Source: Spirochaetales bacterium
GTDB taxonomy: Bacteria > Spirochaetota > Spirochaetia > SZUA-6 > JAFGRV01
Length of the DNA stretch: 64,000 nt
Direction: 5' to 3'
Assembly: GCA_016930085.1 (NCBI GenBank)
Contig: JAFGHO010000029.1
Span: 1-64,000 of the forward strand
In this document: positions 53,491 to 58,019 of the stretch, piece after piece
Position numbering within the stretch: position 1 is the stretch's first letter
Layout of the letters: the number at the start of each line of letters is the position of its first letter
Made by a program: the position numbers and the translations under genes
The notes under the pieces: generated by a model
What the model saw: the letters and a program-made list of their open reading frames with translations, nothing else
What the model was told of the DNA's origin: nothing
Databases searched by the model: none

Positions 53491-53543
53491 GGGGCGGAAA
53501 ACAATAGTTTTTCTGCTTGATTAAATGTACCGGATATAATAAA

Positions 53544-54233
53544 ATGTTAAATACGGTACAATTTATGCGTTTTACCGATACCCATTTCATTATTGCATAC
53601 CGTCTTCTCTGCGAACCCGACAGGCAATGGAAAACGGGAGATTTTGCGGACTGCCACAGGCCTTCCGTCGTTTCTTTTTTCAATTATCTCATCGGGCAGG
53701 GAGTCCTCGAGAGGAAAAGCCCGCGCGGCCGGAACAGTATTTCGAAACTCGTCAATCCTCAGCAGCTTCTCGGCATGTGCGTCGAAAACTTCAGAAATAA
53801 CGAAGAGAAAGCGATCGGCTTCGTATCGAAACGCCCGGATACCGAACTCGTCAACGACCTCATCGGCCGCGGAATCGAATTCTATCCCGGAAGATTTTCA
53901 GGCATACGCGGAGAACTGATCCAGGCGACGGTGACGGGGTTATCCCTCCTCATCCCGGACCGGAGGATTTTTTACGGTGAACGCCTCGCCGAATTTCAAA
54001 TGGATTTTAAATTATTGAAGGTCGGGTTCGGGGGAAACATCACCGTCATCCTGCCGCGTTACAAATTATTCCTGAGGAAATACGCGGCCGGACGGAACGG
54101 TGTCATGCTGCCGTCGGATTTTTATACATATCTCTTTCTGTCCGTCACGGATACGGTCATCGCGGAACCGCAAAAAGCGTATTTCGAAAAACAATTGGGA
54201 GGAGTCGATGGCAACTTTCTTGCATGGCGATGA
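53544..54233 (+). CDS. AbiEi-like antitoxin candidate
   Basis: A protein of about 229 residues with an N-terminal winged-helix region (GDFADCHRPSVVSFFNYLIG, then VLERKSPRGRNS) and a C-terminal alpha/beta region. The next gene overlaps it by 26 bases and encodes a nucleotidyltransferase-like protein; that order and overlap match type IV AbiE toxin-antitoxin pairs, in which AbiEi represses the operon and counteracts AbiEii. The start is uncertain: TATAAT lies at 53535-53540, only 3 bases before ATG 53544, so a start at ATG 53565 would fit a promoter there better. Family assignment is from domain order and not from strong motifs. Confidence 0.55.
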   Translation: MLNTVQFMRFTDTHFIIAYRLLCEPDRQWKTGDFADCHRPSVVSFFNYLIGQGVLERKSPRGRNSISKLVNPQQLLGMCVENFRNNEEKAIGFVSKRPDTELVNDLIGRGIEFYPGRFSGIRGELIQATVTGLSLLIPDRRIFYGERLAEFQMDFKLLKVGFGGNITVILPRYKLFLRKYAAGRNGVMLPSDFYTYLFLSVTDTVIAEPQKAYFEKQLGGVDGNFLAWR

Positions 54234-55062
54234 ACAGGAAAAAAGATTCCTGAACGTGTTAAAAGATCTGGAACAATACAGGGAAACGATCGTCCTCATC
54301 GGCGGCTGGCTTCCTTTCATCTATATCAATTACCTCTGGAAACTGAAAGAGGACGTCTTTGTCGTCAAAACAGTCGATATCGATTTCGCCCTGCACGAAC
54401 GATACAAGCCTTTTTCCCCCCTTATTCTGGACAAACTGATGAAATCCGGCGATTACATGACCGAACCGGTGTACGAGGGTGAAGCGGCACCATTCGACAT
54501 CTGGGCGTTATACGGCGATGGAAACGAGAAAAAGATGAGACTCGATTTCCTGAGTCACGAGTTCGCCGACCCCGCCCTTTTTCAGAAAAAAATCCTCGGC
54601 GCCGGGGTCAATCTGATACCGCTTGAAACCGTCGAGTTTATGTTAAAAGAATCGCACCGGCAGGAAGTGGCGATTCCGGCCGGGAAAACCGGCATACGAT
54701 ACAATATACTCAAACCTTCGGCCTACTTTTTTGTAAAGGGAATATCCTTTGCCAACAGAAGCACGAATGAAAGCGATTACAAATATATCAAGGATATGTG
54801 GAGTCTTTATTTCGTCCTCGACACGATTCCATTGCGGGAAAAAAAGACATTCCTTTCGGAACTCACCGAATATAAAAAGGAAGAAAAGGAATACTATGAC
54901 TATTTTATCGCCAACATACGGGAATATTTCACCGGAAACGAACCGAAGGGGCTTGACGATCTGACCGGTTTTCTCAAGACGGTCTTCCCGGAACAGGTCG
55001 TCAAAAAGCGCATCGTGAAGATGTTCGGCGAACTCCATGGTTATCTCGAGGGCGATCGATAA
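54208..55062 (+). CDS. Nucleotidyltransferase-like protein (AbiEii-type toxin candidate)
   Basis: A 284-residue cytosolic protein. Near residue 30 VLIGGWLPFIYINYLWK is followed by KTVDIDFALHERYKP, the GG-x(n)-T-x-DIDF signature of nucleotidyltransferases of the AbiEii class, which may attach nucleotides to tRNA or protein targets. The later ESHRQEVAIPAGKTGIRYNI and KYIKDMWSLYF helices complete the size expected. The ATG follows TTGGGAGGAGTCG and overlaps the upstream winged-helix gene. The pair lies in an accessory region beside a decayed restriction locus, a common setting for phage-defence genes. Confidence 0.65.
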   Translation: MATFLHGDEQEKRFLNVLKDLEQYRETIVLIGGWLPFIYINYLWKLKEDVFVVKTVDIDFALHERYKPFSPLILDKLMKSGDYMTEPVYEGEAAPFDIWALYGDGNEKKMRLDFLSHEFADPALFQKKILGAGVNLIPLETVEFMLKESHRQEVAIPAGKTGIRYNILKPSAYFFVKGISFANRSTNESDYKYIKDMWSLYFVLDTIPLREKKTFLSELTEYKKEEKEYYDYFIANIREYFTGNEPKGLDDLTGFLKTVFPEQVVKKRIVKMFGELHGYLEGDR

Positions 55063-55399: not shown

Positions 55400-55711
55400 T
55401 CACTCATTATTGTACTTTTTCATCAGTAATTCAATCTCTGCCCAAACTGATACGAGTAATGCAGCAAACATATTGCTTGATATATCTAATGCAATGGAAT
55501 AACCTTCACCCAAGAACTCATAATCTCTTGGATCAGTATTCTCAGAAAGCTGATTAAGTTGATTGACTTCCTTTTTAAAACCTTCATCAATACTTTGCAG
55601 CAATTCATTCCATTCTGAATCAATAAAATTATCTTCATTTGACAGCATAATTGTATTTAAATATCGTATAAAATAGATTTTATCAAGACTTTGACTTGGT
55701 TGATTCTTCAT
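55400..55711 (-). CDS. Hypothetical protein, 103 residues
   Basis: A mostly helical, acidic protein (LSNEDNFIDSEWNELLQSID, then a moderately hydrophobic ISSNMFAALLVSVWAEIEL near the end). A weak AAAGG lies about 10 bases upstream of the ATG. I recognise no family. AT content is higher than in the core genes, in keeping with the surrounding acquired DNA. It sits 21 bases beyond the end of the broken AlbA_2-type gene and may once have been part of the same island. Confidence 0.5.
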   Translation of the reverse strand: MKNQPSQSLDKIYFIRYLNTIMLSNEDNFIDSEWNELLQSIDEGFKKEVNQLNQLSENTDPRDYEFLGEGYSIALDISSNMFAALLVSVWAEIELLMKKYNNE

Positions 55712-55732
55712 AATTTATTACCTTTATACACT

Positions 55733-56480
55733 TTACAATAACCTATCCACAACCTCCCGGTAGCCAGCCTTCTTCCCTCCAACACGCTTTAAAAGACCTA
55801 TTTTCTTCAATTTGTCAGTATGATACCGGATACCATCTTCTGAAAGTCCTAATTTATCTGCCATTTCTTTCCGGGTTATCCTGGGATATCCTTTAATCAA
55901 ATCAATTACTGTTATTTCTTGTAGGGTTAATCCCTTATCGGTAGTTTTCATAAAGGAAGGACGGTTGAAACCGGTTATGAATATTCCGGTCCCTTTTCCA
56001 GGATAAGTGGAATACCTCGTCCCCAGGCTTCCACCAATCCAATTCTGCGCAAAAGTTCTGCTATTAAAGGATTCCTTCGCTTTGAAATATTGCCATTTCT
56101 CAATTCTTCTATGGTGAGTCCTTCGTAAAGACCGCCCGGATTTCTAATTTCCACCCGGTCTTTAAATATGGCTATCCGGATAAAATCTGGATCACGGTAA
56201 TCCCTATGACAAAATGCATTAATGATTGCTTCCCGTGTAGCTTCCGAAGATATTTCCGGTACATCTTCCCGTTCTATTCCTTTAAGCTTCATCCCGATGT
56301 TGATATTCTTTAAAACATATTTATGGGCTTCATCTATTAGGTTAAGGATATCTCCCTCAAAATCATGCCTGTCGATTATCATGGAACTGGCGGTCCCGCC
56401 AAAAACGGCGCAGCGAAGGAGCCTTACTGTTTTTTCCCAAAGAACAAAAAAGCCGCATTATTCCCTGAATCATAGCCATG
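55733..56480 (-). pseudogene. AlbA_2/RecG-like ATP-binding regulator, broken by frameshifts
   Basis: Three minus-strand pieces in different frames join into one family. The first (56480-56424) reads NNAAFLFFGKK; the second (about 56445-55975) has RHDFEGDILNLIDEAHKYVL, then SSEATREAIINAFCHRDYRD and LRRIGLVEAWGRGIP, the HATPase_c_4 pattern; the third (to 55733) continues GIFITGFNRPSF and a winged helix (RITRKEMADKLGLSEDGIRY). One frameshift lies near 56430 and another near 55990. The N-terminal AlbA_2 DNA-binding half is missing where the hsdM remnant begins. Such proteins often accompany type I restriction genes. Confidence 0.75.
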
Positions 56481-56571
56481 CAAAATTTTCCTTGATTGTG
56501 TTATCAAGGTATTCCGCCGAGGCCCAAAGCTTGTCTTCGAATCCGAGATTCACTCCGCTTGTTTTTACCAT
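56470..56571 (-). pseudogene. Truncated hsdM (type I restriction methylase) start
   Basis: A 33-codon fragment opening MVKTSGVNLGFEDKLWASAE. LGFE-KLW-AA is the usual start of type I N6-adenine methylase subunits (HsdM). The frame then runs into a stop at the junction with the AlbA_2-type remnant, so nearly all of the methylase has been deleted. Its ATG directly follows the stop of the XRE regulator gene, preserving the original operon order. Confidence 0.6.
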
Positions 56572-56796
56572 CTATTTCATCTCCCCGAGTGTCAGTTTTC
56601 CGTTTTCCGTCATCTCTCCGATAAAATCATTAAACTGTTTCATGGCCAGCCTCGAAGGAGACGTCTGCCCGTTTTCCCACCGGTTGATCACAGCAAAACT
56701 CACCCCGAGTTCGCGGGCTAGGTCTTCCTGGCTGAAATCCAGTTGCTTTCTGATTTCCTTGATTATTATGGAGAAATCTTTTTTCTTTTTATCCAT
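56572..56796 (-). CDS. XRE-family helix-turn-helix regulator
   Basis: A small DNA-binding protein of 74 residues (78 if ATG 56808 is used). The helix-turn-helix reads FSQEDLARELGVSFAVINRW and then ENGQTSPSRLAMKQF, a standard Cro/CI-type fold. In type I restriction operons such a gene often comes just before hsdM and controls it, as in this position. ATG 56796 has GGAAG upstream and is preferred. A good promoter lies at 56826-56853. The gene looks intact although its targets downstream are decayed. Confidence 0.85.
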   Translation of the reverse strand: MDKKKKDFSIIIKEIRKQLDFSQEDLARELGVSFAVINRWENGQTSPSRLAMKQFNDFIGEMTENGKLTLGEMK

Positions 56797-56825
56797 ATTT
56801 CTTCCCATTAAATAATTTCATTTGT

Positions 56826-56887: not shown

Positions 56888-57814
56888 CTAAAGCGAGGCG
56901 TCGAGTCTTTCCCTGACCATTTCAGGATAATGCCCCTTCTGGATATCCAGGAGCGCGTTGATCGAGCTTTCGTATTTCACCCGGTAATCGCGGATCGCTT
57001 TTTCGAGTTTTGTTTTTAATATGCTTTCCACGAGAGACGGGTCGGTTCCGTCGACGATTAATTCCAGACCCTTTTTGATCAACTCGTCGTCGACCATCTC
57101 CGCGTCGCTTTCGAGTTGAAGAAGGCCTTTCGTGTGGGCTTTCCTGCATAATTCGTAAAAAAACTCTTTTAGTTCCGCGTTGGTAAACCCACTCGATTTT
57201 TTCTTTTTTAATATCCCGACAGGTTCGCTTTTGACAGGGGTCTCTTCTTTACCGGCTTTTTCACTCATAATTTCACCTGCTTTTACCAGCCTTTTATAAA
57301 CGCCGAGGATTTTTTCCTTTGATGCTGTAACTGCCATTTCGGGTGTATCCGTCAATGCCGTGATATCGCTTTTCAGCAGAGTACATGCCCGTCCGGACAT
57401 ATTGACAAATACCTTCTGTTTTACCCCTTCATCCGCATCCAGCAGCGCCATGGCAAGGATCTGAGAATCAACCTGTCTCAACAGCCTTTGCATCGCCCTG
57501 TTCTTTAATCCTTTGAGCCGATCGAATTCTTCTTTGATGGTTCCACTCATAGTATCCTCCTTATTGATCTGAGTGCAGTAATCGGATAATTGCCGCCAGC
57601 TTTTGAAACCGTAGTGAAGGGCAATCGCGTATCGGGCGTCGTGCAGTTTTATCGGGGCGTTCAGAAATGCTTTTTTCGGCAACGATGCGTATCTCCCGAT
57701 TAACCTGAAGATGCGGAAGGCGGCATAATCGCCGTTCCGAAAGGCTTTCAGTAACTGCTTTGCCTGCTTTTTGAGGTGTTCGACGGATGGTTTTTCGGGC
57801 AGGTTTTCCGGCAT
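56888..57814 (-). CDS. Ankyrin-like/FliG-C-like/MotA-loop-like fusion protein with internal start
   Basis: A 308-residue soluble protein built from three recognisable parts. Residues 1-85 (EHLKKQAKQLLKAFRNGDY, then LHDARYAIALHYGFKSWRQL) match the short helical module found at the N-terminus of many ankyrin-repeat proteins. Residues about 105-160 (ILAMALLDADEGVKQKVFVN, MSGRACTLLKSD) resemble the C-terminal helices of the flagellar switch protein FliG. Residues about 215-280 (KAHTKGLLQLESDAEMVDDE, KKGLELIVDGTDPSLVESIL) closely resemble the cytosolic loop of the stator MotA, but no membrane helices are present. An AAGGAGG lies 5 bases before in-frame ATG 57550 (Met89), so a shorter form without the first module is probably also made. 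ATG 57814 follows GAGGAG. Confidence 0.75.
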   Translation of the reverse strand: MPENLPEKPSVEHLKKQAKQLLKAFRNGDYAAFRIFRLIGRYASLPKKAFLNAPIKLHDARYAIALHYGFKSWRQLSDYCTQINKEDTMSGTIKEEFDRLKGLKNRAMQRLLRQVDSQILAMALLDADEGVKQKVFVNMSGRACTLLKSDITALTDTPEMAVTASKEKILGVYKRLVKAGEIMSEKAGKEETPVKSEPVGILKKKKSSGFTNAELKEFFYELCRKAHTKGLLQLESDAEMVDDELIKKGLELIVDGTDPSLVESILKTKLEKAIRDYRVKYESSINALLDIQKGHYPEMVRERLDASL

Positions 57815-58019
57815 CAATACTCCTCTCACTGTTCCCGGTTGTCCGCACCCGCGGGGTGAAAAGAATATATATGCCACAACACATTGAAGCGACAGGCGGG
57901 TTCGACCCTTTCCGCAGACACAGAGGGTACCTGCATACCCATTACTATAAATATAAAGAAAAATATTGTGCGAATCAAGTATGTATCTATCGAATTCCTC
58001 GTAATGAACCGGCACCCCA

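Follow-up and report, generated by a model that had tools for sequence, protein, structure and literature searches.

The window (the whole stretch of Spirochaetales DNA that was analyzed, 64,000 nucleotides) carries a gene for a 308-residue protein, P0001, in which a domain of the flagellar rotor protein FliG is followed by the cytosolic parts of the stator protein MotA. The initial annotation had placed this gene at 56888-57814, and these coordinates stand; the gene is encoded on the minus strand, and a plus-strand reading of the same interval was ruled out, being full of stops. The locus comprises the following features:

56891..57814, minus strand: open reading frame of P0001, 308 residues, ATG start, stop codon at 56888-56890
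57551..57814, minus strand: leader domain, residues 1-88, resembling the N-terminus of ankyrin-repeat proteins and containing no ankyrin repeat
56891..57550, minus strand: possible 220-residue form starting at the internal ATG at 57550 (M89), from the upstream Shine-Dalgarno sequence, the translation and the lengths of relatives
57266..57529, minus strand: FliG C-terminal domain, residues 96-183 (Pfam FliG_C), with the equivalents of E. coli FliG R281 and D289 kept
56996..57193, minus strand: MotA cytosolic loop, residues 208-273, with the GLELIVDGTDP motif; E98 equivalent kept, R90 replaced by H
56891..56992, minus strand: MotA C-terminal cytosolic tail, residues 275-308, aligned with the genome's own MotA; TM3-TM4 are missing between loop and tail
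57950..57978, minus strand: candidate sigma70-type promoter TTGATT-N17-TATATT ahead of the start at 57814, read by eye

Translation may begin at 57814, at 57550, or at both. A perfect Shine-Dalgarno sequence (AAGGAGG, read from the sequence at 57556-57562) stands five bases before the M89 ATG, and the resulting 220-residue form is close in length to the relatives described below (207-217 residues). Codon-position GC is coding-like both in the part that encodes residues 1-88 and in the remainder of the 308-codon frame. Two consecutive plus-strand genes at 53517-55062 resemble, by eye, an AbiEi/AbiEii-type toxin-antitoxin pair. Downstream of P0001, at 55700-56815 on the minus strand, an XRE-type HTH is followed by frameshifted pieces of an AlbA/RecG-like ATPase, apparently a decayed gene.

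Apparent decay in the region at about 55700-56800, neighbors that are not conserved and the lack of a close relative among the genomes searched all speak for P0001 being evolutionary debris, in which duplicated fragments of fliG and motA fused by chance into something without function. Set against this are an intact 308-codon frame with a coding-like composition throughout, two good ribosome-binding sites, and a length and layout that are common to its relatives, which together make debris very unlikely.

Both halves of P0001 were recognized by family models and by PDB chains. Pfam FliG_C (PF01706) matched residues 96-183 with 67.6 bits (E 1.3e-18, cut-off 23.3; hmmscan), and a FliG chain in the PDB, 1qc7, matched with an E value of 1.6e-13. 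Six NCBIfam models of the MotA/MotP/PomA family matched residues 208-278 (E 1.3e-11 to 1.7e-5; hmmscan), and the MotA chain of PDB 6ysf matched with an E value of 1.2e-9. In PDB 8ucs, in which the MotAB stator is in complex with FliG, both partners were matched by P0001 at the sequence level: FliG chain H by residues 97-189 (E 3e-10) and MotA chain C by residues 203-273 (E 1.3e-9). Beyond the loop, residues 275-308 matched the cytosolic tail of MotA from the same genome (EIMIEGILSIQSGDNPRILEEKL), with YESSINALLDIQKGHYPEMVRERL of P0001 aligned to EIMIEGILSIQSGDNPRILEEKLL of MotA, and the MotA part therefore reaches the C-terminus of P0001. Since loop and tail are both matched, this part corresponds to the whole cytosolic domain of MotA with the membrane helices deleted. 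No membrane helix was found in P0001, its maximum 19-residue hydropathy being 0.86, in agreement with what had been noted from the sequence.

The initial annotation had described a soluble protein combining a FliG-C-like part with a MotA-loop-like part, and this layout was confirmed by the Pfam, NCBIfam and PDB matches. The two ranges given for it were too narrow: the FliG domain spans residues 96-183 and not 105-160, and the MotA part, for which 215-280 had been proposed on the basis of the GLELIVDGTDP-bearing loop, extends from 208 to the C-terminus at 308. Of the two outcomes that had been named as counting against this layout, a lack of significant profile matches to FliG or MotA did not appear (E 1.3e-18 and 1.3e-11), and neither did homologs common in genomes without flagella. 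Overall, the gene encodes a genuine soluble protein that unites both sides of the flagellar torque contact by joining a FliG C-terminal domain to the entire cytosolic domain of MotA. The statement that no protein of this layout had been described agrees with our literature search, which had most subscription journals outside its reach and returned neither a FliG-MotA fusion nor a FliG-type sigma regulator. Predicted structures (pLDDT 57 for P0001 and 73.5 for a relative) were too weak for statements about contacts between the halves, and a fold search with these models supported the FliG-C half of a relative only.

The leader had been called an ankyrin-like N-terminus, which holds only insofar as P0001 has it in common with an ankyrin-repeat protein. 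Residues 1-88 were 39-46% identical to protein N-termini in three related genomes, and the one of these proteins that was scanned carries true ankyrin repeats further on. In P0001 itself, Pfam gave no match to residues 1-88 and no Ank match anywhere in the protein.

Relatives of P0001 were sought class-wide in 395 genomes and phylum-wide in 393 genomes, with at most seven candidates scored per genome, so that all counts are lower bounds. Proteins with the FliG part before the MotA part (FliG>MotA) were found in at least 11 genomes, namely G000 (the genome of the window), G002, G012, G029, G131, G263, G243, G198, G367, G530 and G406. The reverse order (MotA>FliG) occurs in G002, G004 and G535, and adjacent separate FliG-type and MotA-type genes in G102. 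Such proteins thus recur sparsely across Spirochaetota and in several layouts. A profile scan with a closer alignment returned relatives in four Spirochaetales/Spirochaetaceae MAGs, all of them sigma-linked (see below), and a restrictive pattern scan of genome contigs and viral contigs returned none. Among the matches listed for plasmids, only FliG-like ones were present, covering at most 47% of the query.

Several loci found along the way differ in composition. In G001, a relative of the window organism, contig C42 (L036, 3646-6801, minus strand) carries genes for a FliM-like protein, a 533-aa fusion of two SpoA domains with the FliG middle and C-terminal domains, and a 217-aa soluble protein with a MotA loop, a cluster that resembles a second, membrane-less switch-plus-stator set. 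An 831-residue frame in G004:C347 (L039, 3617-6112, minus) comprises two tandem MotA cytosolic domains and a C-terminal FliG_C. G530:C13 (L142, 3805-4743, minus), from another class of the phylum, encodes two FliG-C units followed by a MotA part, with an ECF sigma gene 6 nt further on. G003:C319 (L040, 4836-5252, minus) encodes a 138-aa protein in which FliG_C, with no MotA part, follows a MazE-type antitoxin DNA-binding domain; no obvious toxin gene adjoins it. At G362:C170 (L145, 2975-4069, minus), several membrane helices (TspO-like by eye) precede a C-terminal stretch of 100 residues that is a FliG-C close to the sigma-clade type. Finally, in G002:C338 (L034, 1-4576, minus), the bi-domain gene is followed downstream by genes for a 577-residue protein and a 946-residue protein that by eye resembles CHAT-domain (caspase-like) proteins.

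In phylogenetic trees, which rest on short domains with long branches, the sigma-linked proteins together with those of G002 and G012 formed one clade (98/97 in the FliG-C tree, 100/98 in the MotA tree and 100/99 in the concatenated tree). P0001 fell outside this sigma clade. In the separate FliG and MotA trees it grouped with flagellar-type sequences; in the concatenated tree, P0001 and the G406 protein were positioned between the sigma clade and the flagellar sequences, with support of 92/86 for a split that has every FliG>MotA protein on the same side. A plain sigma-linked family member, which was also considered for P0001, is disfavored by the separate trees, and AU tests decided neither way, as placement inside the sigma clade was not rejected (p 0.52 and 0.24). 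On these alignments, P0001 probably branches off deep within a sparsely distributed Spirochaetota family.

In the sister clade, the bi-domain gene is coupled to a gene for an ECF sigma factor. Six intact pairs were identified, with the sigma gene directly downstream (G029, G131, G263, G243, G198 and G530), and Sigma70 regions 2 and 4 were recognized in four of the linked sigmas by Pfam and in the others by profile. The two genes overlap by 4-8 nt in G131, G263 and G243 and are separated by 2 nt in G029 and 6 nt in G530, the sigma start in G198 being uncertain. Three further pairs are decayed or displaced: the linked sigma gene of G367 has an in-frame TAG, that of G012 is a remnant with region 4 only, and G002 has an intact sigma 34 kb away (149.6 bits, outside the profile), preceded by the same promoter and by what remains, 37 codons, of a second bi-domain gene. 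A profile of the linked sigmas gave 190-227 bits for linked sigmas vs at most 77 bits for the remaining ECFs in those genomes, the sigmas of G029, G131, G198 and G530 being both used to build the profile and among those scored.

A shared promoter accompanies this linkage. The motif [CA]AACC-N17/18-AC[ACT][AT]A was present upstream of all ten sigma-clade genes (10/10), 39-122 nt before the start, compared to 0.04 expected by chance (first-order Markov shuffles). As the motif was defined on these same sequences, a whole-genome check weighs more: the strict form CAACCN{17,18}ACTAAA occurs 10 times in ten whole genomes, five of these occurrences being sigma-clade promoters, and in both G131 and G198 the sole genome-wide match is the sigma-clade promoter. 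No sigma regulon beyond the operon was found, as the other strict-motif matches examined lacked a convincing gene start behind them. ECF systems typically have an AAC-containing -35 box, are autoregulated and are transcribed together with a regulator (PMC8103513). The pairing with a sigma factor under a shared promoter suggests that in the sister clade motor parts have been reused as a gene-regulating switch.

None of this coupling extends to P0001. No ECF sigma gene lies near the gene, no sigma of the linked group was detected in its genome (the best, at 73.6 bits, is a generic ECF), and the ECF-like motif is absent before the genes of both P0001 and G406. Upstream of P0001 there is no CAACC-N17/18-ACTAA as in the sigma-linked relatives, and the strict form occurs nowhere in the genome of the window. 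As that genome has neither a group sigma nor the strict motif, any sigma-related role for P0001 is borrowed from the sister clade.

Two charge contacts are described for E. coli and Salmonella, MotA R90 with FliG D288/D289 and MotA E98 with FliG R281 (PMC12505986, PMC7564593), and R281 and E98 are part of the torque contact of the flagellar motor (PMC7564593, PMC12505986). Within the FliG>MotA proteins, R281 is kept in 11/11 FliG units and E/D98 in 9/10 MotA parts; K264 and R297 are lost throughout, R90 remains in 3/10, and D288/D289 vary. P0001 follows this pattern, with R281, D289 and E98 retained and K264, D288, R297 and R90 lost (four of seven contact positions changed), and this loss makes a faithful mimic of the motor doubtful. 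The distribution of kept and lost residues fits a FliG-MotA clasp that is retained through one of its two charge pairs, and folding alone may also account for the conservation of R281 and E98. Were the domains only generic helical scaffolds, recruited as protein-binding folds, with their links to the motor or to each other lost, and now binding unrelated partners such as a sigma factor in one clade and something else in the case of P0001, one would readily understand how far the sigma-clade sequences have diverged from FliG and MotA, as well as the FliG-C that stands behind a MazE-type domain in G003 and lacks any MotA part. We consider such a scaffold improbable, because exactly these two interacting domains co-occur repeatedly, in both orders and as neighboring genes, which is hard to explain if they act separately, and because the R281-E98 pair has been kept while other contact residues were lost.

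Our preferred reading, to which we would assign a probability of roughly 45%, is that the soluble rotor-stator module is a regulatory switch that in the sister clade probably regulates the sigma factor and that is an orphan in the case of P0001. The FliG and MotA halves would bind each other, within or between chains, via a contact of the R281-E98 type, and the state of this clasp would set the affinity for a partner, which opening would change. For the sister clade we envisage the ECF sigma factor as this partner, most likely held by anti-sigma action that is relieved when a competing ligand, possibly the FliG or MotA of the motor, opens the clasp; positive autoregulation would be part of the scheme. 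The P0001 lineage would have lost, or never had, the sigma and would apply the same switch to another partner, possibly through the leader of the ankyrin-protein type. A bolder version, which we regard as rather doubtful, is that these proteins form a new class of sigma regulator built from the contact domains of rotor and stator, whose halves are in competition with the motor's own FliG and MotA and thereby convert motor assembly or load into a transcriptional signal; P0001 would then be a deep branch of this class that has switched to a different partner.

P0001 could also, as the initial annotation proposed, act on the motor itself as a brake, clutch or assembly factor, its MotA part binding the switch and/or its FliG part binding the stator so that torque is blocked or modulated. 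Both domains derive from the motor contact, the R281 and E98 equivalents are in place, and a separate FliG-family gene was found in 12/12 genomes checked that carry such proteins (11 above the FliG cut-off, with only a 409-residue paralog in G243). This co-occurrence bears out, weakly, the suggestion that homologs would be confined to flagellated genomes; nearly all spirochaetes are flagellated, and it therefore has little power for or against an action on the motor. Such an action appears rather unlikely given the four altered contact positions, the distance of the gene from the flagellar genes, which are found on contig C69, and the ties of its relatives to a sigma factor instead. These ties are the strongest clue to function and point to a role in transcription. 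Pfam gave no match in P0001 to a PilZ (c-di-GMP) domain as present in the YcgR-type brake.

Spirochaetes regulate motility in unusual ways and, to our knowledge, how cells sense the assembly and load of the flagellar motor is a largely open question. A soluble protein with both sides of the torque contact, whose relatives have a sigma factor and promoter of their own, would be equipped from the outset to sense contact between rotor and stator. Should the link to the motor have been lost, such proteins would still be a clear case of motor parts put to new use as a regulatory switch.

Compared with known systems, P0001 shares with FliG (TIGR00207) the C-terminal torque domain, at 41% identity to the genome's own FliG over residues 97-194, and the R281 equivalent; K264, D288 and R297 are changed. 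It is not a full-length FliG with N-terminal, middle and C-terminal domains, as it matched model positions 230-336 only (57.9 bits vs a cut-off of 226.7), and without the N-terminal and middle domains it has no known route to FliF, FliM or rotor binding. With MotA (NF005997, PRK08124; PDB 8ucs) it shares the loop, the tail, the GLxLIVDGTDP motif and the E98 equivalent; unlike MotA, it lacks all four membrane helices, joins the loop to the tail and has H at the R90 equivalent. The proton channel of a stator is likewise missing (43.9 vs 340 bits). FlgM/sigma28, the motor brake YcgR (PilZ) and the EpsE clutch are known systems that show no sequence relation to P0001 in family scans, and offer a possible analogy as soluble proteins linking motor state to transcription or torque. 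ECF operons with a cognate soluble anti-sigma factor (PMC8103513) are marked by sigma coupling and a shared promoter, which the P0001 gene lacks. The sister clade likewise has a two-domain ECF sigma and an AAC-containing, apparently autoregulated promoter; its regulator is instead built of FliG-C and MotA domains and encoded first, with the sigma second, and is predicted to act as an anti-sigma factor.
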